A stretch of DNA of 64,000 bases from Streptomyces sp. NRRL F-5122. Lineage in GTDB: Bacteria > Actinomycetota > Actinomycetes > Streptomycetales > Streptomycetaceae. Under the pieces are notes generated by a model. The model made no database searches. It saw only the letters and a program-made list of their open reading frames with translations, and was not told the origin of the DNA. The stretch lies in NCBI RefSeq assembly GCF_001507435.1, contig NZ_LMWH01000037.1:237416-301415 (forward strand), written 5' to 3'. Both the position numbers and the translations under genes were made by a program. This document shows positions 3,887-26,084 of the stretch, piece after piece; positions within the stretch are counted from its first letter, which is position 1, and every line of letters starts with the position of its first letter.

Positions 3887-6232
3887 ATGAACGCGTATCC
3901 AAGACGTCAGGTTCTCGGAGCCGCCGCGGTGGTGGCCGCGGGGGCGGCGCTCCCCCTCGCCGTCCCGGCCTCGGCCGGGTCCGCCGGCTCACCCGGCGCG
4001 GACGCCCACTGGGTTCCGGTTCCCGATCCCGTTCCCGTCGCCCTCGACGGCTACTTCGACAACGATGCCATCGACACCGCCTCCGCCCGCGGCGGCAACT
4101 TCGACGGTTCCGGCTACACCTTCCCGGGTGAGGAACTGCCCGCAGGGCGCGTGGTCGTCGACGGCATCCTCTTCGACTTCCCGTCCTCCGCAGCGGGAGC
4201 CGCCAACAACATCGTGGCCCTCGGCCAGCGCGTCGACCTGCCCAAGGGGCGTTACCTCTCGGCCCTGTTCCTCACCTCGGGCAGCTACGGCAACGCCTCC
4301 GGCCAGGCCACCGTGCACTACGCGGACGGCACGACGACGACCGGCGGGCTCGGCGGGTCCGACTGGTACGCGGCGGGCGGTTCGCTGTCGGCCCCGTACC
4401 GCTACGCACCGGACGGCAGCAAGGACGAGCACACCGTCGGCATCGGCACGGCCGAGGTCTGGATCGATCCCGGGCGCGAGGCGGTCGGCCTCACCCTGCC
4501 GACCACCAACCCGGCCGAGGAGGGCAAGGCATCCCTGCACGTCTTCGCGCTCTCCCTGCAACCGGTCGCCGAGGGACGGGCGCTGGCGCTGCGCGACGCG
4601 CACTCCACGTTCTCCCTTCTCGAGGCCGGCGGTGCCCAGAGCGTGGAGGCGACCGTGGTCAACGCGGGCACGGTCGCCGTACTGGCCGCTGACGAGGTGG
4701 CCGTGAGCGTCGACGTCCCGGGTGCCCGTACCGTCGAACCGGGCCGGGTCAGCCGTCTCGACCCCGGCGAACAGGCCCGGGTGCGGATCGGCATCCGCAA
4801 CCGCGGCGGCACGACCCCCGGCACGGTGCGGTCCGGCACGGTCGCCGTCCACAGCGGCCGCCGCCAGGTCGGCGCCCGGACGGCGGACCTCACCCTCGGC
4901 GTGCCCGACTACCGGCCCACCGACGCCTCGCTCGCCGGGCACCAGGCGCCCTACTGGTTCCACCGTGCGAAGTTCGGCATCTTCATCCACTGGGGTGTCT
5001 ACTCCGTGCCCGCCTGGTCACCGGTCGGCCAGCAGTACGCCGAGTGGTACTGGAACAACCTGCAGAGCGCGGACAACGCGGTGTACGCATACCACGCGCA
5101 GACCTACGGCGAGGACTTCGCCTACGACGACTTCATCCCGATGTTCACCGCGGCCAGGTTCGACCCGCGGGCCTGGGTGGAACTGTTCCGGGACGCGGGC
5201 GCCCAGTACCACGTGCTCACCTCCAAGCACCATGAGGGCTTCGCCCTGTGGGACACCAAGCTCTCCGACCGCAACGCGGTGAAGATGGGCCCGAAGCGCG
5301 ATCTGATCCGGGAACTCTTCGACGCCTCGGCGAAGTTCACACCGGAGCTGCACCGGGGCCTCTACTTCTCGATGCCCGAGTGGTTCAACCCCGACAACCC
5401 GTGGATGGGTCACGCGCCGCGCAATCCGTACACCCTGGAGCCGGTCCCGTACACCGGATACACGGCGGGCAAGGACTATGTGAAGGACTACCAGGCCCCC
5501 CAGATGCTGGAGCTGATCCACCGGTACGACCCGGCCGTCCTGTGGTGCGACATCGGCGGTGCCAACGACAGCCTCGACGTCGTCGCCGAGTATTTCAACC
5601 ACGGCAAGAACCGGCCGAAGCCGTACGAGGTGGCCGTCAACGACCGCTCGGGCATCGCCTTCCACGACTTCACGACCCCCGAGTACACGACGTACGACAA
5701 CACCGTCGTCGCCAAGTGGGAGGCGAGCCGGGGTCTCGACCCGTTCAGCTACGGCTACAACCGGGCGACCCCGGACGACCGTTACATGACGACCGAGGAG
5801 GTCGTGCACAGTCTGGTCGACATCGTGTCGAAGAACGGCAACTTCCTCCTGGACATCGGTCCTCGCGCCGACGGCACCATCCCGGAGATCATGCAGACCC
5901 GGCTGCGTGAGACCGGCCACTGGCTGAAGACCAACGGCGAGGCGATCTACGACACGACGTACTGGTCCCGTATGGCGCAACTCGGAGAGGACCTCCGCTT
6001 CACGGTCCGGCAGAACGAGGCGTTCTACATCCACTCGCTGACACAGCCGGGCAGCACCCTGACGGTGGAGGCGCCCGTGCCGATCCGCGGCGGGGACAAG
6101 GTGACGATGCTGGGCCACGACCGGCCACTGAACTGGCGGGTGCGCAACGGCTCGCTGGTGATCGACGTGCCCCAGGCGGCGCGCAGGGCGGGCCGCCACG
6201 TCTGGGTGTTCAAGGTGGAGTGGCACAGCTGA
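3887..6232 (+). CDS. Secreted GH29 alpha-L-fucosidase with N-terminal accessory region
   Basis: Hydrolyses alpha-linked L-fucose from glycans outside the cell. 781 residues. Start ATG 3887 has a GGAGG site. Residues 1-30 form a Tat-type signal (RRQVLG followed by an Ala-rich hydrophobic stretch ending in ASA). Residues about 35-340 form a beta-rich accessory region, including an NPCBM/CARDB-like part with VEATVVNAGTVAV. The GH29 domain starts near residue 355 with WFHRAKFGIFIHWGVYS and continues with VLTSKHHEGFALWDTK; the predicted nucleophile is Asp555 in LWCDIGG. The enzyme is much longer than the roughly 450-residue catalytic domain alone. The gene lies convergent to the LacI repressor and 14 kb from an L-fucose catabolic operon, which fits a role in releasing fucose from glycoproteins. 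Confidence 0.93.
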   Translation: MNAYPRRQVLGAAAVVAAGAALPLAVPASAGSAGSPGADAHWVPVPDPVPVALDGYFDNDAIDTASARGGNFDGSGYTFPGEELPAGRVVVDGILFDFPSSAAGAANNIVALGQRVDLPKGRYLSALFLTSGSYGNASGQATVHYADGTTTTGGLGGSDWYAAGGSLSAPYRYAPDGSKDEHTVGIGTAEVWIDPGREAVGLTLPTTNPAEEGKASLHVFALSLQPVAEGRALALRDAHSTFSLLEAGGAQSVEATVVNAGTVAVLAADEVAVSVDVPGARTVEPGRVSRLDPGEQARVRIGIRNRGGTTPGTVRSGTVAVHSGRRQVGARTADLTLGVPDYRPTDASLAGHQAPYWFHRAKFGIFIHWGVYSVPAWSPVGQQYAEWYWNNLQSADNAVYAYHAQTYGEDFAYDDFIPMFTAARFDPRAWVELFRDAGAQYHVLTSKHHEGFALWDTKLSDRNAVKMGPKRDLIRELFDASAKFTPELHRGLYFSMPEWFNPDNPWMGHAPRNPYTLEPVPYTGYTAGKDYVKDYQAPQMLELIHRYDPAVLWCDIGGANDSLDVVAEYFNHGKNRPKPYEVAVNDRSGIAFHDFTTPEYTTYDNTVVAKWEASRGLDPFSYGYNRATPDDRYMTTEEVVHSLVDIVSKNGNFLLDIGPRADGTIPEIMQTRLRETGHWLKTNGEAIYDTTYWSRMAQLGEDLRFTVRQNEAFYIHSLTQPGSTLTVEAPVPIRGGDKVTMLGHDRPLNWRVRNGSLVIDVPQAARRAGRHVWVFKVEWHS

Positions 6233-6259
6233 GCGAGAAGGGCCGTCGGCGGCGAACCC

Positions 6260-6276
6260 CCGGGCGTCGTGCCCGG
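6260..6276. terminator. Small hairpin between convergent fucosidase and LacI genes
   Basis: CCGGGC-GTCGT-GCCCGG forms a 6-bp GC stem with a 5-base loop, 28 bases after the fucosidase stop. It is plausible as a terminator, but the stem is short and no U tract follows. Confidence 0.35.
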
Positions 6277-6383
6277 AGCGGAGCCGGTTCGTCGACGTTC
6301 GACGGTCCGGGAGGGGGCGGGGGAGTCCGGTCGTCGTCCGGCCGGGGTGATCCCCGCCGCCTCCCGCATGTCCACCGCCGTTC

Positions 6384-7463
6384 TCACCCGGCGGACCCGC
6401 TCCCCCGGGGCCGGGGCTGAGAGTCGAGCGCCGCCCCGGTGCTCTCCCGCTCGATCAGCCGCGGCACGGGTACCTGCACCGTGCGGGCCGGGCCACCGTC
6501 CAGCAGCGCCGTCAGCTCTTCCGCCGCCTTGCGGCCGAACCCCACCGTGTCACGGGAGAGTGCGGACAGCCACGGCTTGACCATGCGGCACAGCGCCGAG
6601 TCCTCCCACGAGATCACCGAGACGTCGGCGGGTACCGCGAAGCCCAGCTCGGCCGCCGCCGTGACGCCGGCGAGCGCCATCACGTCGTTGTCGTAGACCA
6701 GCGCGGTCGGCGGTGCGTCCTCGGCCAGCACGCGGCGGGTGACGGCGGCGCCCTCCGCGTCCGAGTAGTCGGTGGTCACCGACCGCACTTCGCAAAGGCC
6801 CCGCCGTTCGGCCTCCGTGCGCAGCGTACGGATGCGGCGCTCCGTATGCGCGAGGCCCGGAAGTCCCGCGATGTGCACGATCCTGCGGTGGCCCAGCGCA
6901 TACAACTGGCCGACCACCGCCGCCATCGCGCCCGCGTCGTCGGCCCAGACCGTGGACAGCCCGGGATGCCGCGCGTCAGGCACCCCGCCGATCACCACCG
7001 CGGGCAGGCCCAGTTCGTCGAGCAGATCGGGGCGCGGATCGTCCGTACGCGGATCGACCACCATCACGCCGTCCACCCGGTGCTCGGCCCACCAGCGCCG
7101 GTAGACGCCGCACTCCGCGTCCACGTCCTCCACCACCTGGAAGAGCAGGCCCAGGTGACGCTCCGCCAGTACCTCCTGGATGCCGGAGATGAGTTGGAGG
7201 AAGAAGGAGTCCACGCCCAGCGTGTCCGCCGGACGCGCCACGACCAGGCCCACCGTGGCCGCGCCCTCCCCCGAGAGCTGGCGCGCCGCGGTGCTCGGCC
7301 GCCAGCCCAGCTGCTCTGCGACCCGGCGTACCCGGTCGCGGGTGACCTCGGAGACACCCGGCCGCCCGTTGAGCGCGAAGGAGACGGCGCTCTCGGAGAC
7401 CCCGGCGCGCCGGGCGATGTCCTTCATGGTCGGACGGCGTGCGGGGGACCGCTTGGCGGGCAC
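6384..7463 (-). CDS. LacI-family transcriptional repressor of the oligosaccharide operon
   Basis: 359 residues. N-terminal LacI helix-turn-helix at about residues 13-60 (MKDIARRAGVSESAVSFALN, with the hinge sequence AARQLSGEGAATVGLV), followed by a periplasmic-binding-protein-like effector domain (GHRRIVHIAGLPG; ALVYDNDVMALAG; VSVISWEDSALCRMV). It is divergent from the ABC transporter/glycosidase operon; the intergenic region carries two GCGC-centred palindromes of LacI type. It therefore most likely represses that operon and itself until an imported sugar binds. The probable inducer is an N-glycan-derived oligosaccharide or its breakdown product (inference). Its 3' end is convergent with the fucosidase gene. 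Confidence 0.93.
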   Translation of the reverse strand: MPAKRSPARRPTMKDIARRAGVSESAVSFALNGRPGVSEVTRDRVRRVAEQLGWRPSTAARQLSGEGAATVGLVVARPADTLGVDSFFLQLISGIQEVLAERHLGLLFQVVEDVDAECGVYRRWWAEHRVDGVMVVDPRTDDPRPDLLDELGLPAVVIGGVPDARHPGLSTVWADDAGAMAAVVGQLYALGHRRIVHIAGLPGLAHTERRIRTLRTEAERRGLCEVRSVTTDYSDAEGAAVTRRVLAEDAPPTALVYDNDVMALAGVTAAAELGFAVPADVSVISWEDSALCRMVKPWLSALSRDTVGFGRKAAEELTALLDGGPARTVQVPVPRLIERESTGAALDSQPRPRGSGSAG

Positions 7464-7485
7464 GGCGGCCCCTTTCTTTGAGTGG

Positions 7486-7501
7486 ACTAATGCGCTTGAG
7501 T
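7486..7501. promoter_or_regulatory. LacI-type operator O1
   Basis: ACTAATGCGCTTGAGT is a 16-bp imperfect palindrome centred on GCGC, 23 bp from the LacI start codon. Its left part is repeated in inverted orientation in the next site. Confidence 0.65.
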
Positions 7502-7509
7502 ACCTAGAC

Positions 7510-7525
7510 CCTAAAGCGCATTAGT
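7510..7525. promoter_or_regulatory. LacI-type operator O2
   Basis: CCTAAAGCGCATTAGT is a 16-bp near-palindrome centred on GCGC, 24 bp centre-to-centre from O1. Bases 7514-7525 are the exact reverse complement of 7486-7497. The pair lies in the LacI/transporter divergent promoter region. Confidence 0.7.
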
Positions 7526-7566
7526 GGGAGCGTGCAAGTACTCCTTGAGGGGTGCTCTGACCTGGA

Positions 7567-7590
7567 CTAATGAGGTACGTATTTCATTAG
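7567..7590. promoter_or_regulatory. Third dyad in the LacI/ABC-transporter intergenic region
   Basis: CTAATGA and TCATTAG are perfect inverted repeats around a TACGTA centre (7576-7581). It shares the word GGACTAATG with operator O1 (at 7564-7572 and 7484-7492), so it may be an auxiliary site for the same repressor, 90 bp before the binding-protein start. Confidence 0.5.
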
Positions 7591-7679
7591 CTGAGGCGAA
7601 TCCATTGACTTCTCTCGAACGTGCCGTGCATGGTCGCTGGCGACACCAGCCGCCGACGCCGCAAGGGAGCCGTGTCACC

Positions 7680-8975
7680 GTGCCCACTCCATCCCGCAGA
7701 ACATTCGCCGTCGCCGCCCTCGCCGCCCTCGTCCTGCCGCTGAGCGCCTGCGGTTCCTCGGACGACGGCAGTGGATCCACCGACGCGTCCGGCAAGGTCG
7801 AGGGGGACATCACCTTCCAGACCTGGAACCTGCGCGCCAACTTCAAGCCGTACTTCGACGGCCTGATCGCCGACTTCGAGAAGAAGTACCCCGGCACCCA
7901 CGTGAAGTGGATCGACCAGCCCGCCGAGGGCTACGCCGACAAGCTCAGCGCGGACGCGGCGGGCGGGACCCTGCCCGATGTGGTCAACGTCTCGCCCGAC
8001 CTGCTCGCCCCCCTGGTCAAGGCGGGGCTCGCCCTCGACCTCGACAAGGCGGCGGCCAAGTACCGGCCCGAGTACCTCGACGGTGCCTGGACGGGGCAGC
8101 AGATACCGGGCGTAGGCGGTACCTACGCCTTCCCCTGGTACCTGAACACCGGCCCGATGTTCTACAACAAGGGCCTGTTCAAGAAGGCCGGACTCGACCC
8201 GGACTCGCCCCCGAAGACGTACGACGAACTCTTCACCGACGCCCTGCAGATGGCGCAGAAGAGCAACGGCAAGGTCGCCACCCTCGCCAATGTGCCCACC
8301 GTCGAGGACTTCGGTCGCTACGGCGTCGAGCTGATGAACAAGCAGGGCACCGGCTTCGCCTTCAACGACGCGAAGGGTGTCGAGCTCCTCACCAAGTACA
8401 AGGAGCTGTACGACGCCAAGGCGCTCGACCCGCAGGCCCTGACCGCCACGCCCGAGTCCTCCGGGAAGATGTTCCTCACCGAGGCCGTCGCCATGAACCC
8501 GGGCAGCGCGCTGGACCTGGAGAACTTCAAGAAGCAGGCGCCGAACCTGTACAAGAACATCGGGATCACCGACCAGATCACCAGCACCGGTCACGTCAAC
8601 ATGTACGTGATGGGCGTGATGGTCAACTCCCGTACCAAGCACACCCCGGCGGCCGTCGCCTTCGCGCACTACGTGACCGACGCGCAGAACCAGATGTCGT
8701 TCGCGAAGCAGGTGGCCATCTTCCCGAGCACCGCCGGCTCGCTCGACGACCCGTACTTCACCAAGGAGGACGGCACGGACGAGACGCGGGTGCGGATCGC
8801 GGCCGCCAAGTCCCTGAAGAACGCGGTCAACTACACGCCCGTACTCTTCAGCGACCAGATGAAGACAGCACTGCGCAACGAGGTCGCCAAGGCGCTCCAG
8901 GGCAAGGAGAGCCCCAAGGCGGCACTCGACAACGCTGTCAAGGCCTGCGACCAGCTTCTCCAGCAGCAGGGCTGA
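7680..8975 (+). CDS. Extracellular solute-binding lipoprotein, family 1 (oligosaccharide ABC importer)
   Basis: Captures sugar outside the cell for the two permeases that follow. 431 residues. Start GTG 7680 has an AAGGGAG site and is chosen over the upstream frame beginning near 7524, which would run through the operators. Signal peptide VPTPSRRTFA... with lipobox LSAC (lipidated Cys24) and a Gly/Ser linker, then a typical family-1 fold (GDITFQTWNLRANF; DVVNVSPDLLAPLVKAG; WYLNTGPMFYNKGLFKKAGL). The first gene of the LacI-controlled operon. No ATPase gene is present, so a shared MsiK-type ATPase is expected, as known for Streptomyces CUT1 systems. The ligand is inferred from the glycosidases: GlcNAc-terminated oligomannose. 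Confidence 0.93.
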   Translation: MPTPSRRTFAVAALAALVLPLSACGSSDDGSGSTDASGKVEGDITFQTWNLRANFKPYFDGLIADFEKKYPGTHVKWIDQPAEGYADKLSADAAGGTLPDVVNVSPDLLAPLVKAGLALDLDKAAAKYRPEYLDGAWTGQQIPGVGGTYAFPWYLNTGPMFYNKGLFKKAGLDPDSPPKTYDELFTDALQMAQKSNGKVATLANVPTVEDFGRYGVELMNKQGTGFAFNDAKGVELLTKYKELYDAKALDPQALTATPESSGKMFLTEAVAMNPGSALDLENFKKQAPNLYKNIGITDQITSTGHVNMYVMGVMVNSRTKHTPAAVAFAHYVTDAQNQMSFAKQVAIFPSTAGSLDDPYFTKEDGTDETRVRIAAAKSLKNAVNYTPVLFSDQMKTALRNEVAKALQGKESPKAALDNAVKACDQLLQQQG

Positions 8976-8981
8976 ACCATC

Positions 8982-9875
8982 ATGGCCACATCCACCGTGT
9001 CGCGGGTGCGGCGCCAACTCCCCACCAGTCCCTGGCTCTTCGCCGTGCCGGGGCTGGTGGTGACCGGCGTCTTCATCCTCTATCCGTTCGTCTCCACCGT
9101 GGTGAACGCCTTCACCGACCGCCGCACCCTGATCCCGGGCGAATTCGTCGGGCTCGCCAACTTCCGCGAGCTGCTCCATGACGACATGTTCTGGATCGGC
9201 CTGCGCAACAGCGCGCTCTACGTCCTCGGGGTGGTCCCCGCGCTCGTCCTGCTGCCTCTGCTGCTCGCCCTGCTGGTGCAGAAGAACATCCCCGGTATCG
9301 CGTTCTTCCGCTCCGCCTTCTACACCCCGGTGGTCGCCTCCATCGTCGTCGTGGGCCTGATCTGGGTGTGGCTGCTGGACGAGCGCGGTCTGGTGAACTC
9401 GCTGCTGGAGACGATCGGAGTCGGCCGGGTCGGCTTCCTCAGCGACCAGTGGCTGCTCCTGCTGAGCGCCATGGCCGTCACGGTCTGGAAGGGCCTCGGC
9501 TACTACATGATCATCTACTTGGCCGCTCTCGCCCATGTCCCCCGTGAACTGCACGAGGCCGCGGCCGTGGACGGCGCGGGTGCCGTGCGTCGCTTTCTGA
9601 CGGTCACCGTGCCCGCGCTCCGCTCCACCATGGTGCTGGTCGCCGCGCTCTCCTCGGTCGCCGCATTCAAAGTGTTCTCCGAGGTGTACCTGATCGCCGG
9701 TCCCACCGGTGGCCCGGCCGGGGAGGACACGACCCTGGTCATGCTCGTCCAGCGCACCGGCACGGGCCTGACCGGCCGGGTCGGCTACGCCTCGGCGATC
9801 TCGCTCGTCGTGTTCGTCGTCACCGTGGCGCTGATGCTGCTCGTCCTGCGCGCGGACCGGAGGGAGGAGTCATGA
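8982..9875 (+). CDS. ABC transporter permease, MalF type
   Basis: Inner-membrane subunit of the oligosaccharide importer. 297 residues with about six hydrophobic segments (LFAVPGLVVTGVFILYPFV near residue 22) and the EAA loop HEAAAVDGAGAVRRFLTVTVP that docks with the ATPase. Starts 6 bases after the binding-protein stop; its stop overlaps the next start (ATGA). Paired with the following MalG-type subunit. Confidence 0.93.
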   Translation: MATSTVSRVRRQLPTSPWLFAVPGLVVTGVFILYPFVSTVVNAFTDRRTLIPGEFVGLANFRELLHDDMFWIGLRNSALYVLGVVPALVLLPLLLALLVQKNIPGIAFFRSAFYTPVVASIVVVGLIWVWLLDERGLVNSLLETIGVGRVGFLSDQWLLLLSAMAVTVWKGLGYYMIIYLAALAHVPRELHEAAAVDGAGAVRRFLTVTVPALRSTMVLVAALSSVAAFKVFSEVYLIAGPTGGPAGEDTTLVMLVQRTGTGLTGRVGYASAISLVVFVVTVALMLLVLRADRREES

Positions 9876-10777
9876 GTGTCGTGGAGAAGGCACCGCCGGC
9901 TCCCGCGCCCGCCGTCGTGCACCGCGGACCGGTCACCGACGAGCACGGCCGCCGCATCCGGGTGTGGGAACTGGTCCTGAGGTACGTGCTGCTGCTGTTC
10001 GTGCTGGCGCTGACGGTCGGCCCGTTCCTGTGGCAGCTGTCCACCTCGCTCAAGGGCCCGACCGAGGACATCTTCAGCTCCCCGCCCTCCTTCCTGCCCG
10101 CCCACCCGACGCTGCACAACTACGCGCGCGTCTCGGACACCATCCCCGTGTGGGACTACGCCCTCAACTCGCTGAAGGTCGCCACCGCCAACGTGGTGAC
10201 CAACTGCGTCGGCTCGGCCCTCGCGGGCTACGCGCTGGCCCGGCTGCGCTACCGGGGCCGCAGGGTCGCCACCCTCGTCTTCATCCTGGCGATGCTGGTC
10301 CCCGCGGAGAGCATCATCATCGCCCAGTTCACCACCATGCGGGAACTCGGTCTCAACAACTCGCTGGTCGGCGTCGTCCTGCCGGGCAGCGTCGGCGCCA
10401 TGAACGTGCTGCTGATGCGCAACGCCTTCCTCAACCTCCCCTTCGAGATAGAGGAGGCCGCGTTCGTCGACGGCGCCAACGTCTGGCAGCGGTTCGCCAG
10501 GATCGCGCTGCCGTCGGTCAAAGGCACCCTCGCCGTCGTCGCGATCTTCGCGTTCATGTTCTCCTGGGACGACTTCCTGTGGCCGCTGATCGTGCTGAGC
10601 GACCCGTCGAAGTTCACCCTGACCATCGGACTCAACTATCTGCACGGCACCTTCGCCAACGACGAGCGCCTCGTCGCCGCGGGCACCGTCATCGCGGTGG
10701 CGCCCCTCATGGTCCTCTTCGCCTGCCTGCAGCGCTACTTCTTCCGCGGCGTGGGCGAGGGCGCCGTCAAGGGCTGA
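9872..10777 (+). CDS. ABC transporter permease, MalG type
   Basis: Second membrane subunit of the importer. 301 residues: a cytoplasmic N-terminus rich in Pro/Ala, six predicted helices (YVLLLFVLALTVGPFLWQL is the first) and the EAA motif IEEAAFVDGANVWQRFARIAL. Overlaps the MalF-type gene by 4 bases, so translation is coupled. It ends with FFRGVGEGAVKG, the usual CUT1 tail. Confidence 0.93.
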   Translation: MSVVEKAPPAPAPAVVHRGPVTDEHGRRIRVWELVLRYVLLLFVLALTVGPFLWQLSTSLKGPTEDIFSSPPSFLPAHPTLHNYARVSDTIPVWDYALNSLKVATANVVTNCVGSALAGYALARLRYRGRRVATLVFILAMLVPAESIIIAQFTTMRELGLNNSLVGVVLPGSVGAMNVLLMRNAFLNLPFEIEEAAFVDGANVWQRFARIALPSVKGTLAVVAIFAFMFSWDDFLWPLIVLSDPSKFTLTIGLNYLHGTFANDERLVAAGTVIAVAPLMVLFACLQRYFFRGVGEGAVKG

Positions 10778-10813
10778 ACCTCCGTACGTGCACCACTGTC
10801 TGAAGGAATCCGC

Positions 10814-12046: not shown

Positions 12047-12086
12047 CCCGTCCCCACACCGTCCCCACGACGAAACGGAGCACACA

Positions 12087-14105: not shown

Positions 14106-14135
14106 CACCCGCACCCACACCCCACGGAGCACCCC

Positions 14136-17153: not shown

Positions 17154-17160
17154 GGCGGGC

Positions 17161-17195
17161 GCGGGGCATCGCGCGTTCGGCGCGCGGTGCCCCGC
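17161..17195. terminator. Strong hairpin terminator after the glycosidase operon
   Basis: Arms 17161-17175 and 17181-17195 pair over 15 bp with a single G-U wobble and a 5-base loop (TTCGG). It lies 8 bases after the mannosidase stop, and the convergent GntR gene ends 82 bases further on, so it can serve both directions. Confidence 0.75.
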
Positions 17196-17276
17196 CGGGA
17201 GCCCGCCGGAGGTTGTGCCCCTTCGATCACAGGACGGCGGTGGGCACTCGATGGTGATCGTCCCGGGCAGGGCCGC

Positions 17277-18014: not shown

Positions 18015-18057
18015 GCCACTTCCTCCCGTTGCCGTGCGCGGCAGTCTAATCACTGAT

Positions 18058-18070
18058 GTGGTCCGACCAC
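18058..18070. promoter_or_regulatory. FadR-type GntR operator
   Basis: GTGGTCCGACCAC is a perfect 13-bp palindrome with one central base; the inner TGGTCCGACCA fits the FadR-subfamily consensus TNGTCNGACNA. It lies 44 bp from the regulator start and 108 bp from the binding-protein start. A second, imperfect copy TGGTCTGATAA occurs at 18123-18133. Confidence 0.7.
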
Positions 18071-18122
18071 TACGGTCGGATTACCGGAAATCTTGCCGTC
18101 GAAGGGTGTTGTGCGGGCCGAG

Positions 18123-18133
18123 TGGTCTGATAA
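18123..18133. promoter_or_regulatory. Second, imperfect FadR-type half-site
   Basis: TGGTCTGATAA keeps the left half TGGTC and the GA of the FadR consensus but has a degenerate right half. It is 45 bp upstream of the binding-protein start and could give cooperative control. Confidence 0.4.
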
Positions 18134-18177
18134 GTATGCGGGCAACTGGTCGATCACGCTCGATGAGGAGCCGACAG

Positions 18178-19263
18178 ATGGCCCGCAGGACAGTGCGGTA
18201 CGGACGGCAAGGCAGGCGACTCTCCTCGTGGGCGGTGCGCGCGACGGCCACGGCCGCTTGCGGCACCTTGGCGCTCACGGCATGCGGCAGCACGAAGGAC
18301 GCCGGACCGGCCAGCGCCGGAGGCGACGGCACCGGGAAGGTCGGGGTGATCCTGCCCCTGCTGACCTCGCCGTTCTGGCAGTCCTACAACGACTACGTGC
18401 CCAAGATGGCGAAGTCGGAGGGCGTCGACGCCCTGAAGACGGTCAACTCCAACAGCGACCCGTCCCAGCAGATCACCGACATCAACAACGAGCTCAATCA
18501 GGGCGTGAAGGGGCTGGTGGTCGCCCCGCTGGACAGCGCCGCCATCGAGGCCGGGCTCGACCAGGCCGAACGCAAGGGCGTCCCGGTGGTCGCCGTCGAC
18601 GTCGCGCCCGACAAGGGCAAGGTGGCGATGGTGGTGCGTGCCAACAACGTCGCCTACGGCGAGAAGGCCTGCGACTACCTCGGTCAGCACGTCACCAGCG
18701 GCAAGGTCGTGCAGATCATGGGTGACCTCGCCTCGGTCAACGGCCGGGACCGCTCGGAGGCGTTCCGCGACTGCGTCAAGAAGAAGTACCCCAAGCTGAA
18801 GGTCCTGGAGATCCCCGCCAAGTGGGAATCCGACACCGCGGCCTCCAAGCTCGACACGCTCCTGAACGCCAACCCCGACATCAAGGGCATCTACATGCAG
18901 GCCGGCGGCGTCTACCTCGCGCCCACGCTGCAGACCCTCAAGTCCAAGAACATGCTGAAGACGGCGGGCCAGAAGGGCCACATCGCCATCGTCTCCAACG
19001 ACGGCATCCCGCAGGAGTTCGACGCGATCCGCAAGGGCGAGATCGACGCCACCGTCTCGCAGCCGGCGGACTCCTACGCCAAGTACGGCATGTACTACAT
19101 CAAGGCCGCCATGCAGGGGAAGACGTTCAAGCCCGGCCCCACCGACCACGACTCCGAGATCGTCAAGCTGCCCAGCGGCATCCTGGAGGACCAGCTGCCT
19201 GCCCCGCTGGTCACCAAGGACAACGTCGACGACCCCAAGCTCTGGGGCAACACGGTCAAATGA
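18178..19263 (+). CDS. Sugar-binding lipoprotein, RbsB type (probable L-fucose importer)
   Basis: Type-I periplasmic-binding-fold lipoprotein of 361 residues that delivers a monosaccharide to the following ATPase/permease. Start ATG 18178 with GAGGAG 8 bases upstream; an upstream in-frame extension exists but would cross the operator. Long basic signal peptide with lipobox LTAC (Cys36). Motifs: GVILPLLTSPFWQSYNDY, GLVVAPLDSAAIEAGLDQA, GIYMQAGGVYLAPTLQ. Its stop overlaps the ATPase start (ATGA). L-fucose as ligand is inferred from the downstream enzymes. Confidence 0.9.
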   Translation: MARRTVRYGRQGRRLSSWAVRATATAACGTLALTACGSTKDAGPASAGGDGTGKVGVILPLLTSPFWQSYNDYVPKMAKSEGVDALKTVNSNSDPSQQITDINNELNQGVKGLVVAPLDSAAIEAGLDQAERKGVPVVAVDVAPDKGKVAMVVRANNVAYGEKACDYLGQHVTSGKVVQIMGDLASVNGRDRSEAFRDCVKKKYPKLKVLEIPAKWESDTAASKLDTLLNANPDIKGIYMQAGGVYLAPTLQTLKSKNMLKTAGQKGHIAIVSNDGIPQEFDAIRKGEIDATVSQPADSYAKYGMYYIKAAMQGKTFKPGPTDHDSEIVKLPSGILEDQLPAPLVTKDNVDDPKLWGNTVK

Positions 19264-20768
19264 GCACACCAGTCGTCACCCCCCTGGTGGAGGCGCGGGG
19301 GATCGTCAAGCGGTACGGCCCCACGGTCGCCCTGAGGGAGGGGCAACTCACCGTGCTCCCGGGTGAGTCCCATGCCCTCGTCGGTCGCAACGGCGCCGGC
19401 AAGTCCACCCTCGTCAACGTCCTCACAGGCCTGCAGGCCGCCGACGAGGGCATGATCCGCTTCGACGGCGAGCCGGCGCCCCCGCTCGCCGACCGCGACG
19501 CATGGCGGCGCAAGGTCGCCTGCGTCTACCAGAAGCCCACGGTCGTACCGGAGTTGTCGGTCGCCGAGAACCTCCTGATCAACAGGCAGCCGACCGGTCG
19601 TGGCGGACTCATCAGCTGGCGCAGGCTCAAGGCCGAGGCGGCCGAGGTCCTCGCCACCTGGGACGTGCACGTCGATCCGGACGCCCGCACGGCCGACCTC
19701 AAGGTCGAGGACCGCCAGATGGTGGAGATCGCCCGGGCGCTGAGCTTCGGCGCCCGCTTCATCATCCTCGACGAGCCGACCGCGCAGCTCGACAACCGGG
19801 AGATCGAGCGCCTCTTCACCCGCATGCGGGCGCTGCAGGAATCCGGTGTCACCTTCCTGTTCATCTCGCATCACCTCCAGGAGGTGTACGAGGTCTGCCA
19901 GACCGTCACGGTGCTGCGCGACGCGCGCTGGATCACCACCGCCCCCGTCGCGGATCTCTCCCGGGCGGCCCTGGTGGAGGCGATGGCGGGCGAGATCGTC
20001 GCCGAGCGCGCCGTGTCGGCGCGGGACGCCGTGGCGGACGACGCCCCGGTGGCCCTCGAGGCGCGGGGGCTGACCTCCGAGTCGTACGACGGCATCGACC
20101 TCTCCGTGCGCCACGGAGAGGTCGTGGGACTCGCCGGTTCCAGCGGCAGCGGGAAGATCGAACTCGCGGAGACGTTCGCGGGACTGCGCACCCCGACCGG
20201 CGGCACGGCCCGTCTCGACGGCAGGCCCCTGCCGTTCGGCGATGTGCAGGCCGCGCTCGGGGCGGGCGTCGGCTGCGTGCCCCGGGACCGGCACGAACAG
20301 GGGCTCGTCGCCGGGATGACCGTCGGCGACAACGCCACCATGAGTGTCCTGGGCCGCCTCGGCAGGTACGGGTTCATCGGCACCCGGCGCAAACGCGTCT
20401 TCGCCGCCGATCTGATCCAGCGTCTCGACATCCATGCCGAGGGCCCGGACCAGCCGGTCTCCGACCTGTCCGGCGGCAATGCGCAGAAGGTCGTCATGGC
20501 CCGCGCCCTGGCCTCCGAACCGCGTCTGCTGGTCCTCATCAACCCCACGGCGGGCGTCGATGTGAAGTCCAAGGAGTCGCTGCTGGCCCGGATGGACAGT
20601 GCCCGTGAGGACGGCACCGCCGTGCTCGTCGTCTCCGACGAGCTCGACGACCTGCGGCGCTGCGACCGCGTCCTCGTTCTCTTCCACGGCCGGATCGTCG
20701 CCGAGCACCCGGCGGGCTGGCACGACCACGAGCTGATCGCTTCCATCGAAGGAGTGGACCATGGCTGA
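19260..20768 (+). CDS. Sugar ABC transporter ATPase, RbsA type (two nucleotide-binding domains)
   Basis: 502 residues with tandem ATPase domains. Domain 1: Walker A GRNGAGKST (42-50), Walker B FIILDEPTAQLD, but a degenerate signature LKVEDRQMVEIARAL. Domain 2: Walker A altered (GSSGSGKIEL), signature canonical (LSGGNAQKVVMARAL), and the Walker B/catalytic Glu region is LVLINPTAGVD instead of DEPT. So one composite site (Walker A of domain 1 with signature of domain 2) should be active and the other is non-catalytic, an exaggerated form of the asymmetry known in CUT2 transporters. Overlaps both neighbours by 4 and 8 bases. Confidence 0.92.
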   Translation: MSTPVVTPLVEARGIVKRYGPTVALREGQLTVLPGESHALVGRNGAGKSTLVNVLTGLQAADEGMIRFDGEPAPPLADRDAWRRKVACVYQKPTVVPELSVAENLLINRQPTGRGGLISWRRLKAEAAEVLATWDVHVDPDARTADLKVEDRQMVEIARALSFGARFIILDEPTAQLDNREIERLFTRMRALQESGVTFLFISHHLQEVYEVCQTVTVLRDARWITTAPVADLSRAALVEAMAGEIVAERAVSARDAVADDAPVALEARGLTSESYDGIDLSVRHGEVVGLAGSSGSGKIELAETFAGLRTPTGGTARLDGRPLPFGDVQAALGAGVGCVPRDRHEQGLVAGMTVGDNATMSVLGRLGRYGFIGTRRKRVFAADLIQRLDIHAEGPDQPVSDLSGGNAQKVVMARALASEPRLLVLINPTAGVDVKSKESLLARMDSAREDGTAVLVVSDELDDLRRCDRVLVLFHGRIVAEHPAGWHDHELIASIEGVDHG

Positions 20769-21786
20769 CACCAAGGCCCAGCCGCTCACGCCCGTCCCGG
20801 TCCCCGAGGCGCGTTCGGCCAGGACCGTGCTGCTCCGCCGGGCCCGCGAACTCGCCCTTCTCCCTGCACTGTTGCTGCTCATGGTGCTGGGCGCGTTCGT
20901 GAACGACTCGTTCCTGACCGAGCGGAACATCATCTCGATCCTGGGTGCCTCGGCGGCCCTCGCGATGGTCGTACTGGCCGAGTCGCTCGTGCTGATCACC
21001 GGCAAGTTCGACCTGTCCCTGGAGTCGGTGGTCGGTATCGCCCCGGCGGTGGGCGCGCTGCTCGTCCTGCCCGCCGCCCAGTCCGGCTGGGGCACCGAGT
21101 GGCCCGCCGGACTCGCCCTCGTCGCGATCCTCGTCGTCGGTGCGGCTATTGGCGCCTTCAACGGCATCCTCGTGGTGAAGTTCAAGCTCAACGCGTTCAT
21201 CGTCACCCTCGCCATGCTGATCGTCCTGCGGGGCCTGCTGGTCGGTGCGACCAAGGGCAAGACGCTGTTCGGGATGCCCGACGCGTTCTTCACCCTGGCC
21301 ACCACGACCTTCCTGCGCGTCCCGATGTCCGTGTGGCTGGCCGCCGTCGCCTTCGCGGTCGCCGGTCTCGTCCTGCGCTACCACCGCGTCGGCCGCGCCC
21401 TGTACGCCATCGGCGGCAACGCGGACGCCGCCAGGGCCGCCGGGATCCGGGTGGAGCGGGTGATGCTCGGCGTGTTCGTCGTCGCCGGCTGCCTCGCCTC
21501 GATCGGTGGGATCATGCAGACCGGGTACGTGGGCGCGATCAGCGCCAACCAGGGCAACAACATGATCTTCACGGTGTTCGCGGCGGCGGTCATCGGCGGG
21601 ATCAGCCTCGACGGCGGCAAGGGCACCATGCTCGGCGCGCTGACCGGTGTGCTCCTGCTGGGCGTCGTACAGAACCTGCTGACCCTCGCCCAGGTGCCGT
21701 CGTTCTGGATCCAGGCCATCTACGGCGGAATCATCCTGGTCGCCCTCATGATCGCTCGTGTGACGACGGGCCGTGCCCAGGACTGA
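20761..21786 (+). CDS. Sugar ABC transporter permease, RbsC type
   Basis: 341 residues, about ten hydrophobic segments. Family motifs include GKFDLSLESVVGIAPAVGALL, GAFNGILVVKFKLNAFIVTLAM and GNADAARAAGIRVERV (cytoplasmic loop). Completes the binding protein-ATPase-permease set. Followed by a 75-base gap, then the catabolic genes. Confidence 0.93.
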   Translation: MADTKAQPLTPVPVPEARSARTVLLRRARELALLPALLLLMVLGAFVNDSFLTERNIISILGASAALAMVVLAESLVLITGKFDLSLESVVGIAPAVGALLVLPAAQSGWGTEWPAGLALVAILVVGAAIGAFNGILVVKFKLNAFIVTLAMLIVLRGLLVGATKGKTLFGMPDAFFTLATTTFLRVPMSVWLAAVAFAVAGLVLRYHRVGRALYAIGGNADAARAAGIRVERVMLGVFVVAGCLASIGGIMQTGYVGAISANQGNNMIFTVFAAAVIGGISLDGGKGTMLGALTGVLLLGVVQNLLTLAQVPSFWIQAIYGGIILVALMIARVTTGRAQD

Positions 21787-21861
21787 CCTCCCTCGTTGGC
21801 GTAGATCGCCGTACGACGTACGACCTCGCACGACCTCGTGCCCCGGACCGAAAGGCCTCTC

Positions 21862-23202
21862 GTGTCCCCAACTGCCGCCCGTATCACCGCGGTCGACACC
21901 TTCGACATCCGTTTCCCCACGTCCCGCGAGCTCGACGGCTCCGACGCGATGAATCCGGACCCCGACTACTCGGCCGCCTACCTCGTGCTGCGCACGGACG
22001 CCGCCGACGGCCTCGAGGGGCACGGATTCACGTTCACCATCGGGCGGGGCAACGAGGTACAGGTCGCGGCGATCGAGGCGCTGCGCGGACACGTCGTCGG
22101 AAGGGACGTGGACGAACTGTGCGCGGACCCCGGCTCGCTCTTCCGTGCCCTGATCGCCGACAGCCAACTGCGCTGGCTGGGGCCGGAGAAGGGCGTGATG
22201 CACATGGCGATCGGCGCGGTGGTGAACGCCGTGTGGGACATGGCCGCCACCCGTGCGGGCAAGCCCCTGTGGCGGCTGCTCGCCGAGGCCGAACCGGAGT
22301 GGCTCGTCCGCCAGATCGACTTCCGCTACATCACCGACGCGCTCACCCCCGAGGAGGCCCTGGACCTCCTGCGGCGCGGCAGGCAGGGCACCGAGGAGCG
22401 CACCGCTCGGCTGCTGGCGGAGGGCTACCCGGCCTACACGACCTCCGCGGGGTGGCTCGGCTACAGCGACGAGAAGCTCACCCGGCTGGCCGCGCAGGCG
22501 GTCACCGACGGCTTCCGGCAGATCAAGCTGAAGGTGGGTGCGGACCTCGCCGACGACGTGCGCCGGTGCCGGGTGGCCCGTTCCGTCGTGGGACCGGACG
22601 TCCGCATCGCCATCGACGCCAACCAGCGCTGGAACGTGGACGAGGCGATCACCTGGACCCGGGAGCTCGCCGAGTTCGACCCGTACTGGATCGAGGAGCC
22701 GACGAGTCCGGACGACGTGCTCGGTCACGCCGCGATCCGCAAGGCCGTCACGCCGGTGAAGGTCGCGACCGGCGAACACGTGCAGAACCGTATCGTCTTC
22801 AAGCAGATGCTCCAGGCCGGCGCCATCGACGTCCTCCAGATCGACGCGGCCCGCGTCGCCGGCGTCAACGAGAACCTGGCGATCCTGCTGCTGGCCGCCA
22901 AGTACGGGGTGCCGGTCTGCCCGCACGCGGGCGGGGTCGGGCTGTGCGAACTGGTCCAGCACTTGTCGATGTTCGACCTGGTCGCGCTCTCGGGCACGAC
23001 CGACGACCGGGTCATCGAGTACGTCGACCATCTCCACGAGCACTTCATCGACCCGGTGGTGATCAGGGAAGGCCGCTACTCGGCGCCCACCGCGCCGGGC
23101 TTCTCCGCGGCGATGCGGCCCGAGTCCATCGCTCAGTACACCTTCCCCGGCGGTACCTTCTGGGCCGCCGACCTCGAACAGAAGAAGGGGCACGCGGCAT
23201 GA
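21862..23202 (+). CDS. L-fuconate dehydratase (enolase superfamily)
   Basis: Dehydrates L-fuconate to 2-keto-3-deoxy-L-fuconate. 446 residues from GTG 21862 (site GAAAGG). N-terminal [33 protein letters not shown] opening and [14 protein letters not shown] are characteristic of the FucD/ENOSF1 group. Predicted catalytic and metal residues: Lys222 and Lys224 (KLKV), Asp252 (IAIDANQRW), Glu in [11 protein letters not shown], Glu in VATGEHVQN, and His355 ([11 protein letters not shown]). Next gene overlaps by ATGA. This is the gene that best identifies the operon as L-fucose catabolism. Confidence 0.92.
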
Positions 23203-23954
23203 GCGACTTCGAGGGCCTCAAGGCCCTGGTGACCGGCGGGGCCTCCGGGATCGGCCGGGCCACCGCCGAGCTTCTGGCGGCGCGCGGTGCCGAGGTGGCC
23301 GTACTGGACCTCGACCCCTCGTCGGTGGACAAGCCGCTGCTCGCCCACCGGGCCGATGTGACCGACGATGCGTCCGTCCGCGCGGCCCTGTCCGCCGCGG
23401 TCACCGATCTCGGCGGCCTGGACGTACTGATCAACAACGCGGGTATCGGCGCCCAGGGAACCGTCGAGGACAACGACGACGAGCAGTGGCGGCGGGTGCT
23501 CGACGTCAACGTTCTGGGCATGGTGCGCACGACCCGCGCCGCGCTGCCCCATCTGCGGGAGTCGGCGCACGCGGCGATCGTGAACACATGCTCCATCGCC
23601 GCGACGGCCGGGCTCCCGCAACGGGCCCTGTACAGCGCCAGTAAGGGCGCCGTCCTCTCGCTGACTCTCGCCATGGCCGCCGATCACGTCCGCGAGGGCA
23701 TCCGGGTGAACTGCGTCAACCCCGGCACGGTGGACACCCCTTGGGTCGCCCGCCTCCTCGACGCCGCCCCCGACCCGGCCGCCGAACGCGCCGCGCTCCA
23801 GGCCCGCCAGCCCGCCGGCCGCCTGGTGACGGCAGCCGAGGTGGCCGGTGCCATCGCCTACCTGGCGAGCCCTCTGTCGGGCTCCACCACCGGCACAGCC
23901 CTCGCGGTCGACGGCGGCATGCAGGGCCTCCGGCTGCGGCCGGTGGGCCAGTGA
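23199..23954 (+). CDS. SDR oxidoreductase, probable 2-keto-3-deoxy-L-fuconate (or L-fucose) dehydrogenase
   Basis: 251-residue classical short-chain dehydrogenase. NAD-binding [10 protein letters not shown] near residue 12, Asp at the end of beta-2 (AVLDLD, favouring NAD), NNAGIG, catalytic Ser in NTCSIAAT and YSASK (Tyr/Lys). Located between dehydratase and aldo/keto reductase with 4-base overlaps on both sides. In the non-phosphorylating fucose pathway this position is usually the dehydrogenase acting on the keto-deoxy acid; the exact substrate is inferred. Confidence 0.85.
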
Positions 23955-24937
23955 GCACCCTCGGCGGCAGCGGCGTCGAGGTCGGTCCACTGGCCTTCGG
24001 CGCCGCCGGCATCGGCAACCTCTACACCGAGGTGAGCGAGGAGCGCGCGTACGAGGCGGTCCAGGCCGCCTGGGACAGCGGGATCCGCTACTTCGACACG
24101 GCCCCGCACTACGGACTCGGTCTGTCCGAACGCCGCCTCGGCGCGGCCCTGCGCGAGCACCCCCGCGCCGGGTACACCGTCTCGACCAAGGTCGGCCGTC
24201 TGCTGGAGCCCGCGGGCGCGGGCGGCGACGACCTCGCGAACGGCTTCGCCGTACCGGCCACCCACCGCCGCGTCTGGGACTTCAGCGCGGACGGCGTGCG
24301 GCGCAGCCTGGAGGACAGCCTCGAGCGGCTCGGCCTCGACCGTGTCGACGTGGCGTATCTGCACGACCCGGACGACCATGCCGAACAGGCGCTGCGGGAG
24401 GCCGCTCCGGCGCTGGAGAAACTCCGCTCACAGGGCGTGGTCGGCGCGATCGGCGCCGGCATGAACCAGGCAGGGATGCTGACCCGGTTCGTCCGTGAGA
24501 CGGATGTGGACGTTGTGCTGTGCGCGGGCCGATACACCCTGCTCGACCAGCGGGCACTGGACGAACTGCTCCCGGCGGCCGCCGACCGCGGCGTCTCCGT
24601 GGTCGTCGGCGGCGCGTTCAACTCCGGTCTGCTGGCCGACCCGAGACCCGACGCCACCTACGACTACGCGGCCGCGCCGGCCGAACTGCTGGACCGTGCA
24701 CTGCGGATGAAGGCAATCGCGGAACGGCACGGCACCACGCTGCGCGCCGCGGCGCTGGCGTTCTGCGGCGCCCACCCGGCCGTGGCGAGCGTGCTCGTCG
24801 GCGCGCGCTCGGCGGCCGAGGTCCGCGACTGCGCCGAGCAGTTCGCGGCGACCGTCCCGGCCGCGTTCTGGGAGCAGTTGAAGGATGCGGACCTGCTGCC
24901 GGCCCATGCCCCCGTCCCCGCCGAGGAGCCGTCATGA
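23951..24937 (+). CDS. Aldo/keto reductase, probable L-fucose (D-threo-aldose) dehydrogenase
   Basis: Oxidises L-fucose to its lactone, the first step of the pathway. 328 residues from GTG 23951, overlapping the SDR stop. AKR motifs: LAFGAAGIGNLY, catalytic Asp/Tyr in YFDTAPHYGLGLSE, Lys in STKVGR, His in VAYLHDPDD, and GAGMNQAGM. The sequence pattern is that of the D-threo-aldose 1-dehydrogenase group. A mutarotase and lactonase follow directly, matching substrate presentation and product opening. Confidence 0.88.
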   Translation: MSTLGGSGVEVGPLAFGAAGIGNLYTEVSEERAYEAVQAAWDSGIRYFDTAPHYGLGLSERRLGAALREHPRAGYTVSTKVGRLLEPAGAGGDDLANGFAVPATHRRVWDFSADGVRRSLEDSLERLGLDRVDVAYLHDPDDHAEQALREAAPALEKLRSQGVVGAIGAGMNQAGMLTRFVRETDVDVVLCAGRYTLLDQRALDELLPAAADRGVSVVVGGAFNSGLLADPRPDATYDYAAAPAELLDRALRMKAIAERHGTTLRAAALAFCGAHPAVASVLVGARSAAEVRDCAEQFAATVPAAFWEQLKDADLLPAHAPVPAEEPS

Positions 24938-25248
24938 GAGTCGCCCTGCACACCAGGGTCCGCGCCGATCGCATCGAGGCGTACGAGGCCGCCCACCGGG
25001 ACGTGCCCGAGGAGCTCACCCGGGCGATCAGGGCGGCCGGGGCCACCTCGTGGACCATCTGGCGCAGCGGGACGGACCTCTTCCATCTGCTGGAGTGCGA
25101 GAACTACCCACGGCTGCTGGCCGAGCTGGAGGCTCTCCCGGTCAACGTGGCCTGGCAGGCTCGGATGGCGGAGCTGCTCGACGTCGTGCACGACTACTCG
25201 CGCGAGGGCACGGACGCCGGTCTTCCCGTCGTATGGGAGCTGCCGTGA
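24934..25248 (+). CDS. L-rhamnose/L-fucose mutarotase family protein (DUF718)
   Basis: 104 residues. Interconverts the anomers of a 6-deoxy-L-sugar. Family pattern: RVRADRIEAYEAAHRDVPEE, ATSWTIWRSGTDLFHLLECE and VNVAWQARM. Start and stop overlap the flanking genes by 4 bases. In this operon L-fucose is the obvious substrate. Confidence 0.88.
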   Translation: MRVALHTRVRADRIEAYEAAHRDVPEELTRAIRAAGATSWTIWRSGTDLFHLLECENYPRLLAELEALPVNVAWQARMAELLDVVHDYSREGTDAGLPVVWELP

Positions 25249-26084
25249 CCATCGACGCCCACCACCACGTCTGGGACCTGTCCGTCCGCGACCAGGACTG
25301 GATCACCGGACCCGCGCTTCGGCTCCTGCGGCGGAACTTCACCATGGCGGACCTCGCGCCCGAGGCACGCGCGGCCGGCGTCGACCGGACCGTGCTGGTG
25401 CAGACGGTCACGGTGGCGGAGGAGACCCCGGAGTTCCTGGCGCTGGCGCAGGACGACGACCTCGTCGCCGGGGTCGTCGGCTGGACCGATCTGACCGCAC
25501 CCGATGTCAAGGACACCCTGGACCGGCTGCGCGAACTGCCTGGCGGCCCGTACCTCCGCGGGATCCGGCACCAGGTCCAGGGGGAGCCGGACCCCGAGTG
25601 GCTGCTGCGCCCCGACGTACGTCGGGGTCTGGAGGCGGTCGCGGCGGCGGGCCTGGTGTACGACCTGGTGGTCCTGCCCCACCAGCTCCCGGCGTGCGTC
25701 AGGGTGGCCGCCGATCTTCCCCAGCTCACCTTTGTCCTGGATCACTTGGGCAAGCCACCCATCGCCTCCGGGGAACTCGAACCCTGGGCGTCCCGCGTGC
25801 GGTCGCTCGCCGACCTGCCGAACACGGTGTGCAAGCTGTCGGGGATGGTGACCGAGGCCGACCATCAGGCCTGGAGCCCGGCGGATCTGCGACCGTACGC
25901 CGACACCGTGCTGGACGCCTTCGGCCCCGACCGGCTGATGTTCGGCTCGGACTGGCCGGTGTGCACGCTGGCGGCCACCTATGCCGGGGTGTCGGAGGCT
26001 GCGGGCGTGCTCACTCGAGGTCTCGGGGATCCCGAACGTGCCCAGATCTTCGAGAAGACCGCCGCCCGGGTCTACCGGATCTGA
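25245..26084 (+). CDS. Amidohydrolase, probable L-fucono-1,5-lactonase
   Basis: Opens the lactone formed by the fucose dehydrogenase to L-fuconate. 279 residues, TIM-barrel metal hydrolase of the amidohydrolase-2 family: metal motif IDAHHHVWD at the N-terminus, GIRHQVQGEPD, FVLDHLGKP, VCKLSGMVTEA and the C-terminal metal Asp in LMFGSDWPV. It is the last gene of the operon; it runs 13 bp into the convergent membrane-protein gene. Confidence 0.9.
   Translation: MTIDAHHHVWDLSVRDQDWITGPALRLLRRNFTMADLAPEARAAGVDRTVLVQTVTVAEETPEFLALAQDDDLVAGVVGWTDLTAPDVKDTLDRLRELPGGPYLRGIRHQVQGEPDPEWLLRPDVRRGLEAVAAAGLVYDLVVLPHQLPACVRVAADLPQLTFVLDHLGKPPIASGELEPWASRVRSLADLPNTVCKLSGMVTEADHQAWSPADLRPYADTVLDAFGPDRLMFGSDWPVCTLAATYAGVSEAAGVLTRGLGDPERAQIFEKTAARVYRI

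Follow-up and report, generated by a model that had tools for sequence, protein, structure and literature searches.

Does a cluster of glycan-related genes that looks like one foraging island answer to one programme or to several? The question is raised by a 64,000-nucleotide stretch of the genome of Streptomyces sp. NRRL F-5122 (contig NZ_LMWH01000037.1, positions 237,416 to 301,415; this whole stretch is hereafter the window), in which positions 3887-26084 hold a gene for a secreted-type fucosidase of glycoside hydrolase (GH) family 29, a LacI-controlled operon for the use of N-glycan cores and a GntR-controlled operon for L-fucose uptake and oxidation. A preliminary description had taken them for a single N-glycan foraging island in which the fucosidase works as the partner of a GH85 endo-beta-N-acetylglucosaminidase. 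All of the activities it named are present, in the order it gave (profile searches and PDB sequence matches), the expected catalytic residues of GH5_18, GH85 and GH29 are conserved, and the N-glycan operon does have an oxidative fucose operon as its neighbour. The regulatory sites and the distribution of the genes among relatives lead us to a different reading, to which we assign a probability of about 0.7: the locus consists of two separately regulated sugar-foraging systems, one inside the other.

Predicted LacI operators of the N-glycan operon

The genes and predicted operators of the N-glycan operon are as follows.

6384..7463, minus strand: LacI-family regulator of the N-glycan operon (PF00356, PF13377)
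7487..7500, no strand: predicted LacI operator 1, CTAATGCGCTTGAG (intergenic footprint and own-genome pattern search)
7511..7524, no strand: predicted LacI operator 2, CTAAAGCGCATTAG (intergenic footprint and own-genome pattern search)
7680..8975, plus strand: CUT1 importer substrate-binding lipoprotein (PF01547 1.4e-42; probable start GTG 7680, read from sequence)
8982..9875, plus strand: CUT1 permease 1 (PF00528)
9872..10777, plus strand: CUT1 permease 2 (PF00528)
10814..12046, plus strand: GH5_18 beta-mannosidase, predicted to act on Man-beta-1,4-GlcNAc and to be cytoplasmic (PDB 7lr7 ScGH5_18 2.2e-212; E144, E259)
12087..14105, plus strand: GH85 endo-beta-N-acetylglucosaminidase, predicted exported, Tat-like N-terminus (PF03644 3.7e-82; PDB 2vtf 4e-101; N214/E216; start GTG 12087)
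14136..17153, plus strand: GH38 alpha-mannosidase, predicted cytoplasmic (PF01074 3e-94; PDB 7ufs 9.4e-256)

From the binding-protein gene through the permeases, GH5_18 and GH85 to GH38, all intergenic gaps are of 40 bases or fewer, and to judge by sequence GH5_18, GH38 and the importer genes are transcribed together and answer to a single regulator. Relatives were gathered through the GH5_18 protein, keeping the best 80 of 490 (79 from Streptomyces and one from Actinacidiphila). Synteny is kept, with both the LacI and the substrate-binding protein genes adjoining GH5_18 in 78 of these 80 loci; the exceptions are L025, at a contig end, and L068, which has neither gene. GH85 is absent from the operon in 12 of the 65 loci with at least 9 kb on either side of it (the full-flank set), and operons without GH85 inside include those of L008, L010, L011, L050, L052, L070, L079 and L080. 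This LacI/CUT1/GH5_18/GH85/GH38 half is an operon conserved in Streptomyces, and operons of its kind have been published before.

Footprinting of the intergenic region between the LacI and substrate-binding protein genes, in 79 regions (78 loci and the window), yielded the palindrome CTAAWGCGCWTTAG, which occurs in every one of them: twice in 73, three times in five and once in one. The only window sites reaching 8 bits for this motif are operators 1 and 2, and three shuffles of the window gave none. In the host genome (10.16 Mb in 311 contigs) the exact pattern is found exclusively at 7487-7524 and the reversed pattern nowhere, while outside the LacI/binding-protein region of the 80 relatives' loci the motif reaches at least 13 bits at two places (13.3 and 17.0), against a fifth percentile of 20.8 for the training sites. 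Neither the window scan nor the own-genome pattern search placed one of these operators at GH29 or at any of the fucose genes. Because the sole LacI sites of the window lie at the importer promoter, GH29 and the fucose operon are outside the LacI regulon as far as sequence tells, and GH29 as a LacI target was rejected, with nothing at 8 bits or above elsewhere in the window.

Predicted GntR-type sites on both sides of the N-glycan operon

GH29 and the fucose regulator stand on opposite sides of the N-glycan operon, with the following sites.

3787..3801, no strand: predicted GntR-type site, GGTCATCCGATCACT, upstream of the GH29 promoter -35 (rank 3 of 63,986 window positions by the fucose-only matrix)
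3854..3874, plus strand: predicted exo-operon operator, AATCATCAGACCTCCGATGAA, overlapping the GH29 -10 region (31/199 congeneric genomes)
3887..6232, plus strand: GH29 alpha-L-fucosidase, predicted exported, Tat-like N-terminus (PF01120 1.7e-101; PDB 1hl8 1.3e-82; D555/E599)
17277..18053, minus strand: GntR-family regulator of the fucose operon, LldR/GlcC/NanR-like (profile matches; nearest solved protein PdhR)
18058..18071, no strand: predicted GntR-type site, GTGGTCCGACCACT (fucose-operon motif)
18122..18135, no strand: predicted GntR-type site, GTGGTCTGATAAGT (fucose-operon motif)

The GH29 gene of the window represents a shortened version of an operon for secreted exo-glycosidases, GH29-GH20-GH29B. 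In relatives GH29 is replaced or followed by a GH20 gene and another GH29 gene, whose product has an F5/8C domain (GH29B), and several of the products have Tat-like N-termini by eye; among the best 80 relatives' loci GH29B (cluster C0) occurs in 20 and GH20 (cluster C1) in 18. The full gene order is seen in L019, L023 and L026, where the GH20 start overlaps the GH29 end. In loci lacking GH29, GH20 sits behind the same promoter and operator, and L114 still keeps the end of GH29 between the promoter and GH20. The GH29B and ricin-lectin GH20 genes of relatives are likely the fuller form of the window operon; the second GH29 at L023:2914-4458 (F5/8C) and the GH20 with a ricin-lectin domain at L022:2214-4064 both have Tat-like N-termini. 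Directly behind GH29-GH20-GH29B in L138, a protein resembling formylglycine-generating enzymes by eye (16010-17041) hints at a sulfatase link.

The operator of this exo operon, AATSATCASMCNTCCGATSAA, was found with one mismatch allowed in 31 of 199 congeneric genomes (reversed pattern, none), and in the host genome the GH29 promoter copy is alone even with up to three mismatches. There are 35 such places, of which 30 were taken as loci and G227:C24, G239:C1:3535468, G233:C378 and G158 were also read, leaving out G051:C453; the operator precedes GH29 or GH20 in all 34 examined, and in the 30 loci it stands before GH29 in 14 and before GH20 in 16. Outside this set, L146 has a two-mismatch copy right before GH29B, the sole exo gene found there. 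Some GH29 copies stand alone (L137, L139, L140; no neighbouring amidase was found) and keep the operator, from which we conclude that it goes with the glycosidase and is acted on in trans.

The fucose GntR is our candidate for that role. A position weight matrix trained solely on fucose-operon sites (33 of the form TGGTCnGACC[AG] and 37 of the form TGGTCTGATAA, from 37 regions including the window) scores 21.2 and 19.1 bits at the window's own fucose sites, 14.8 at the GH29 promoter, which is thus third behind those two, and at most 11.7 elsewhere. In 30 of 30 loci the top score within about 3 kb falls in the exo promoter; the loci are interrelated and so are not 30 independent tests, and column-permuted matrices hit a mean of 5.2 loci, with 30 reached by one of 200. 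A shorter pattern, TNRTCNGAYNA, has exactly three matches in the window, and as it was devised after seeing both sets of sites the conclusion rests on the matrix. Co-occurrence points the same way. An ortholog of the fucose GntR (E<=1e-95) is present in 30/31 genomes with the exo operator vs 29/168 of the others, both where GH5_18 (E<=1e-150) is found (24/24 vs 15/73) and where it is not (6/7 vs 14/95), and the link of the operator to GH5_18 itself is weaker (24/31 vs 73/168); Fisher values for the exo, fucose and GH5_18 associations count related genomes and are not readable as probabilities. Related GntR-type sites thus appear to precede both parts of the putative fucose regulon, and we infer that GntR acts on both the fucose operon and the GH29 promoter.

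Several observations weigh against this. The outer bases of the sites differ (ATCnGAT in exo sites, GTCnGAC in fucose sites), and another protein could bind the exo sites. Genome-wide the short fucose pattern is unspecific, with five matches (two in the window) and five for the reversed control. The exo operator has a second, weaker tie, to GH5_18 (p 0.03 among GntR-positive genomes, which are related), and this would fit a degree of shared use. Of the 31 genomes with the exo operator one, G158, lacks a GntR at the E-value used. Fucose genes stand without exo genes in 13 of the 65 full-flank loci, the remainder having both (25), exo genes only (1) or neither (26). On a tree of 66 of 67 loci (L068, without GH38, was left out) the coupling of exo and fucose genes is not significant: among 10 independent pairs about three go the same way and none the opposite way (median p 0.25). 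The exo-only locus of the 65, L061, has FucL 20 kb off and is fucose-positive on that tree. AraC- or GlxA-like candidate genes, recognised by eye, lie near two of the solo GH29 copies.

These last genes, in L137 (9037-9822) and L139 (6687-7775), could belong to an explanation in which the exo operon is under a third regulator of its own whose site merely resembles the GntR site. The 21-base exo operator indeed differs in sequence from the fucose sites, and G158 has it without a GntR ortholog, but the L137 and L139 candidates differ in kind and none was recognised in L140, so there is no common neighbour, and the GntR co-occurrence in 30/31 genomes and the matrix rank would both have to be coincidence. 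We consider such a regulator fairly unlikely. DasR-type control of the fucose operon was also considered and rejected: the DasR site, which we take to be TGGTCTAGACCA, has a spacer of two bases, and the spacer of the fucose sites is one base.

Linkage, separations and remnants

If the locus were one N-glycan island, GH29 would remove core fucose for GH85 and the fucose operon would use it, with linked control and a single substrate. There is linkage in favour of this: among the 199 genomes, 39 have both the fucose GntR and GH5_18, and in 31 of these they lie within 30 kb of one another. In 28 of 50 genomes FucL lies 10-21 kb downstream on the same strand, and exo presence is, as noted, mildly associated with GH5_18. 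Against it, eight of the 39 have the two on other contigs or more than 30 kb apart, 20 genomes have GntR without GH5_18, and GntR is absent from 58 of the 97 genomes with GH5_18. GH5_18 is missing from 7/31 genomes with the exo operator, which in one of the seven stands beside remnants of an N-glycan operon, and GntR is missing from one of the 31. L008, L010 and L011 belong to a clade, counted as one event, whose N-glycan operon is elsewhere and whose exo genes are some 4-6 kb away from the fucose GntR (L154; L145 with L084; L146 with L092, where GH29B is the one exo gene found). Together with the lack of a LacI operator at GH29 and at the fucose operon, this makes the single island improbable. 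The idea that fucosidase and GH85 act as partners under a single programme is not supported: the GH29 promoter resembles the fucose GntR sites, and the exo operator tracks GntR far more than GH5_18.

Two nested systems, separable from each other, are the reading that the remaining loci illustrate. In L149, L150 and L151 amidase, GH20 and GH29B genes stand 2.6, 1.7 and 0.1 kb from the GntR/fucose operon, and nothing recognisable as an N-glycan gene lies in the gap; without an N-glycan operon in the middle, the spacing from exo to fucose operon is 0.1-2.7 kb. L148 has fragments of LacI (residues 293-347) and GH38 (900-1005) between GH20 and the fucose GntR, which look like the scar left where the N-glycan operon was deleted in place. 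Partial operons occur too: L152 has GH5_18 and GH38 (LacI, importer and GH85 were not found) and L141 has GH38 only. In L028, L042, L058, L060, L078 and L081 LMF1 is present, exo genes are absent within 10 kb, and no fucose operon lies downstream of GH38 (L081 retains the aldo-keto reductase, AKR). Gene calls in relatives' loci are often mis-stranded at high GC, and these labels rest on BLAST or reading by eye. Our reading is of a resident fucose regulon with the N-glycan operon between its two parts, whether by insertion of the N-glycan operon or by rearrangement of the fucose genes.

The FucL survey covered 50 of the 80 loci, picked for long flanks, at E<=1e-60. Matches were obtained in 43 genomes, which does not equal 43 with a fucose operon, and the 28 nearby cases are 32 near calls minus L022, L038, L056 and L060, whose strand is inconsistent. 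Taking any FucL match for a fucose operon is ruled out by 13 FucL regions distant from the N-glycan operon: three have GntR, transporter and all enzymes (L084, L091, L092), L093 is cut by its contig, L090 has the enzymes with a different transporter, and eight have AKR, rhaM and lactonase alone (L085-L089, L094-L096). The right flank of the window (26072-32031) consists of LMF1, DUF6777, SpoIIE/PAS/GAF and Fpg genes, and the fucose operons away from the N-glycan operon (L084, L091, L092, and L093 up to its contig end) likewise border LMF1, DUF6777, SpoIIE and Fpg. In L085-L087 and L094-L096 the AKR, rhaM and lactonase genes are the sole genes between SpoIIE and Fpg. Fucose remnants also stand beside GH38 in L081 (AKR) and L031 (a fuconate dehydratase fragment, a short-chain dehydrogenase/reductase (SDR) and AKR), neither with a FucL match at E<=1e-60.

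The enzymes of the two systems

The 410-residue protein earlier called GH5-like gave no match in Pfam and NCBIfam searches, and it clearly belongs with GH5_18: residues 5-408 align with 7lr7 ScGH5_18 at 709 bits, followed by BlGH5_18 7lqx (E 5.6e-121, 408 bits) and 6gvb (8.1e-111). Residue equivalences were called from PDB alignments. E144 aligns with the Glu mutated to Ala in 7lr8, and the second Glu, E259 in LQEVGAP, is presumably catalytic. GH38 matches 7ufs over residues 11-1004 (855 bits), its nearest solved relatives being the alpha-mannosidases 7ufr-7ufu, which we take to be Bifidobacterium longum entries, and has the GH38 motifs that were looked for; the concern that the GH5 and GH38 proteins might fall in clades acting on unrelated substrates is not borne out by these matches. 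The Asn/Glu pair of GH85 (N214/E216) is in place by alignment, as are the Asp nucleophile D555 and Glu acid/base E599 of GH29, and GH85 also matches solved endo-beta-N-acetylglucosaminidases including Endo-D. The best solved match of GH29 is 1hl8, presumably the Thermotoga fucosidase. Twin-arginine N-termini were seen by eye in GH29 (YPRRQVLGA), in GH85 (LSRRAVLLA) and in the importer binding protein, which also has a lipobox; the same reading showed no export signal on GH38 or GH5_18. The proposed division of labour between outside and inside probably holds for the N-glycan operon. No ATPase gene lies alongside the CUT1 importer. Streptomyces share the MsiK ATPase among importers, and the two MalK-type ATPases encoded elsewhere in the host genome are in keeping with this.

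That GH5_18 and GH38 act on plant or fungal mannan oligosaccharides instead of N-glycans is very improbable, for although one table in PMC11475409 puts GH5_18 under mannan, the window protein matches enzymes that a passage of PMC12691653 describes as splitting Man-GlcNAc, and this protein shares its operon and LacI operators with GH85, whose characterised members are exclusively N-glycan-active according to the review PMC10154615.

The fucose operon continues downstream of its regulator with these genes.

18178..19263, plus strand: fucose transporter binding protein, ribose-type (PF13407 7.1e-53)
19260..20768, plus strand: fucose transporter ATPase (PF00005 3.5e-49)
20761..21786, plus strand: fucose transporter permease (PF02653 4.8e-35)
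21838..23202, plus strand: L-fuconate dehydratase (PDB 1yey L-fuconate dehydratase 4e-207)
23199..23954, plus strand: SDR, probable 2-keto-3-deoxy-L-fuconate dehydrogenase (PF13561 1.2e-57; ATG 23199)
23951..24937, plus strand: AKR, probable L-fucose dehydrogenase (nearest solved L-galactose dehydrogenases, 1.7e-36)
24934..25245, plus strand: rhaM-type mutarotase (PF05336 3.2e-19)
25233..26084, start 25233 or 25245, plus strand: L-fuconolactonase (NF052480 7.9e-70, under its curated cut-off)

The genes from transporter to lactonase are present, and no FAH-family hydrolase was found among the scanned genes of 17277-32031. The operon is without its terminal hydrolase, so that the oxidation, which had been called complete, was overstated. 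Eight FAH-family matches, by family match alone, lie elsewhere in the host genome.

A model of two nested regulons

In the model that we propose, the first system (7487-17153) would be the version found in Streptomyces of the N-glycan core operon of actinobacteria. Its exported GH85 would cut the chitobiose core, the LacI-controlled CUT1 importer, with its ATPase supplied in trans, would take up Man(n)GlcNAc, and in the cytoplasm GH38 would strip alpha-mannose before GH5_18 splits Man-beta-1,4-GlcNAc. The second system would be a two-part GntR regulon, its left part the exo-glycosidase operon (GH29 alone here, up to GH29-GH20-GH29B in relatives) and its right part (18058-26084) the genes for L-fucose uptake and non-phosphorylating oxidation, with the final cleavage to pyruvate and lactate left to an enzyme encoded elsewhere. 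Both parts are probably kept off by GntR as long as fucose, or an acid derived from it, is missing; on induction the cell would make the secreted enzymes that remove caps at the same time as those for fucose use, without any part played by the LacI system. The two systems may meet on the same glycans. A more specific version, which we put forward tentatively and at somewhat less than even odds, is a two-input device in which fucose, through GntR, calls up secreted de-capping enzymes (GH29, GH20, GH29B) and fucose use, and the exposed core, through LacI, calls up the endo-enzyme, importer and trimming enzymes, the LacI regulon being nested and separately losable.

Comparison with known systems

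Higgins et al. reportedly described in 2021 (ACS Chem Biol 16:701) the gut and soil actinobacterial N-glycan core loci with GH5_18, to which the ScGH5_18 PDB entries are said to belong. Like these, the window has a signal-less GH38-GH5_18 pair, an importer and a regulator, with ScGH5_18 the nearest solved protein; unlike them, its operon is bracketed by fucose-related genes and a LacI operator is defined. The high-mannose N-glycan system of Bifidobacterium longum combines an endo-enzyme outside, uptake, and GH38 and GH5_18 inside, a layout that is shared here in another genus. The GH38/GH5_18 locus of C. acnes, as a part of PMC6160142 presents it, has importer genes, a regulator, GH20 and GH18, whereas GH85 is inside the operon here. 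A non-phosphorylating L-fucose pathway is known from Xanthomonas campestris and Burkholderia multivorans (in a section of PMC13406643), and the window shares with it L-fuconate dehydratase, lactonase and dehydrogenases but differs in its AKR-type first dehydrogenase, rhaM-type mutarotase, ribose-type ABC importer and lack of an FAH-family hydrolase in the operon. The GntR regulator resembles repressors of the FadR/FCD type (PdhR, LldR, NanR) in its helix-turn-helix and effector domains and its palindromic TGGTCnGACCA-like sites; unlike PdhR, LldR and NanR, it stands at fucose uptake and oxidation genes and would reach a secreted fucosidase/hexosaminidase operon. Searches of the open-access literature found no Streptomyces GntR fucose regulon, no reach of one to secreted fucosidases and no LacI operator for the N-glycan operon. 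What is new seems to be regulatory and positional: two nested regulons, with the fucosidase on the fucose side.

Implications

A predicted regulatory map here replaces a single-substrate guess based on adjacency, and it supplies candidate operators for two Streptomyces sugar regulators together with the prediction that a secreted fucosidase and hexosaminidase are under fucose control. The Tat-type GH29, GH20 and GH85 enzymes are candidates for glycoprotein trimming. Overall, the locus is a caution that clusters of carbohydrate-active enzyme genes may be nested regulons.

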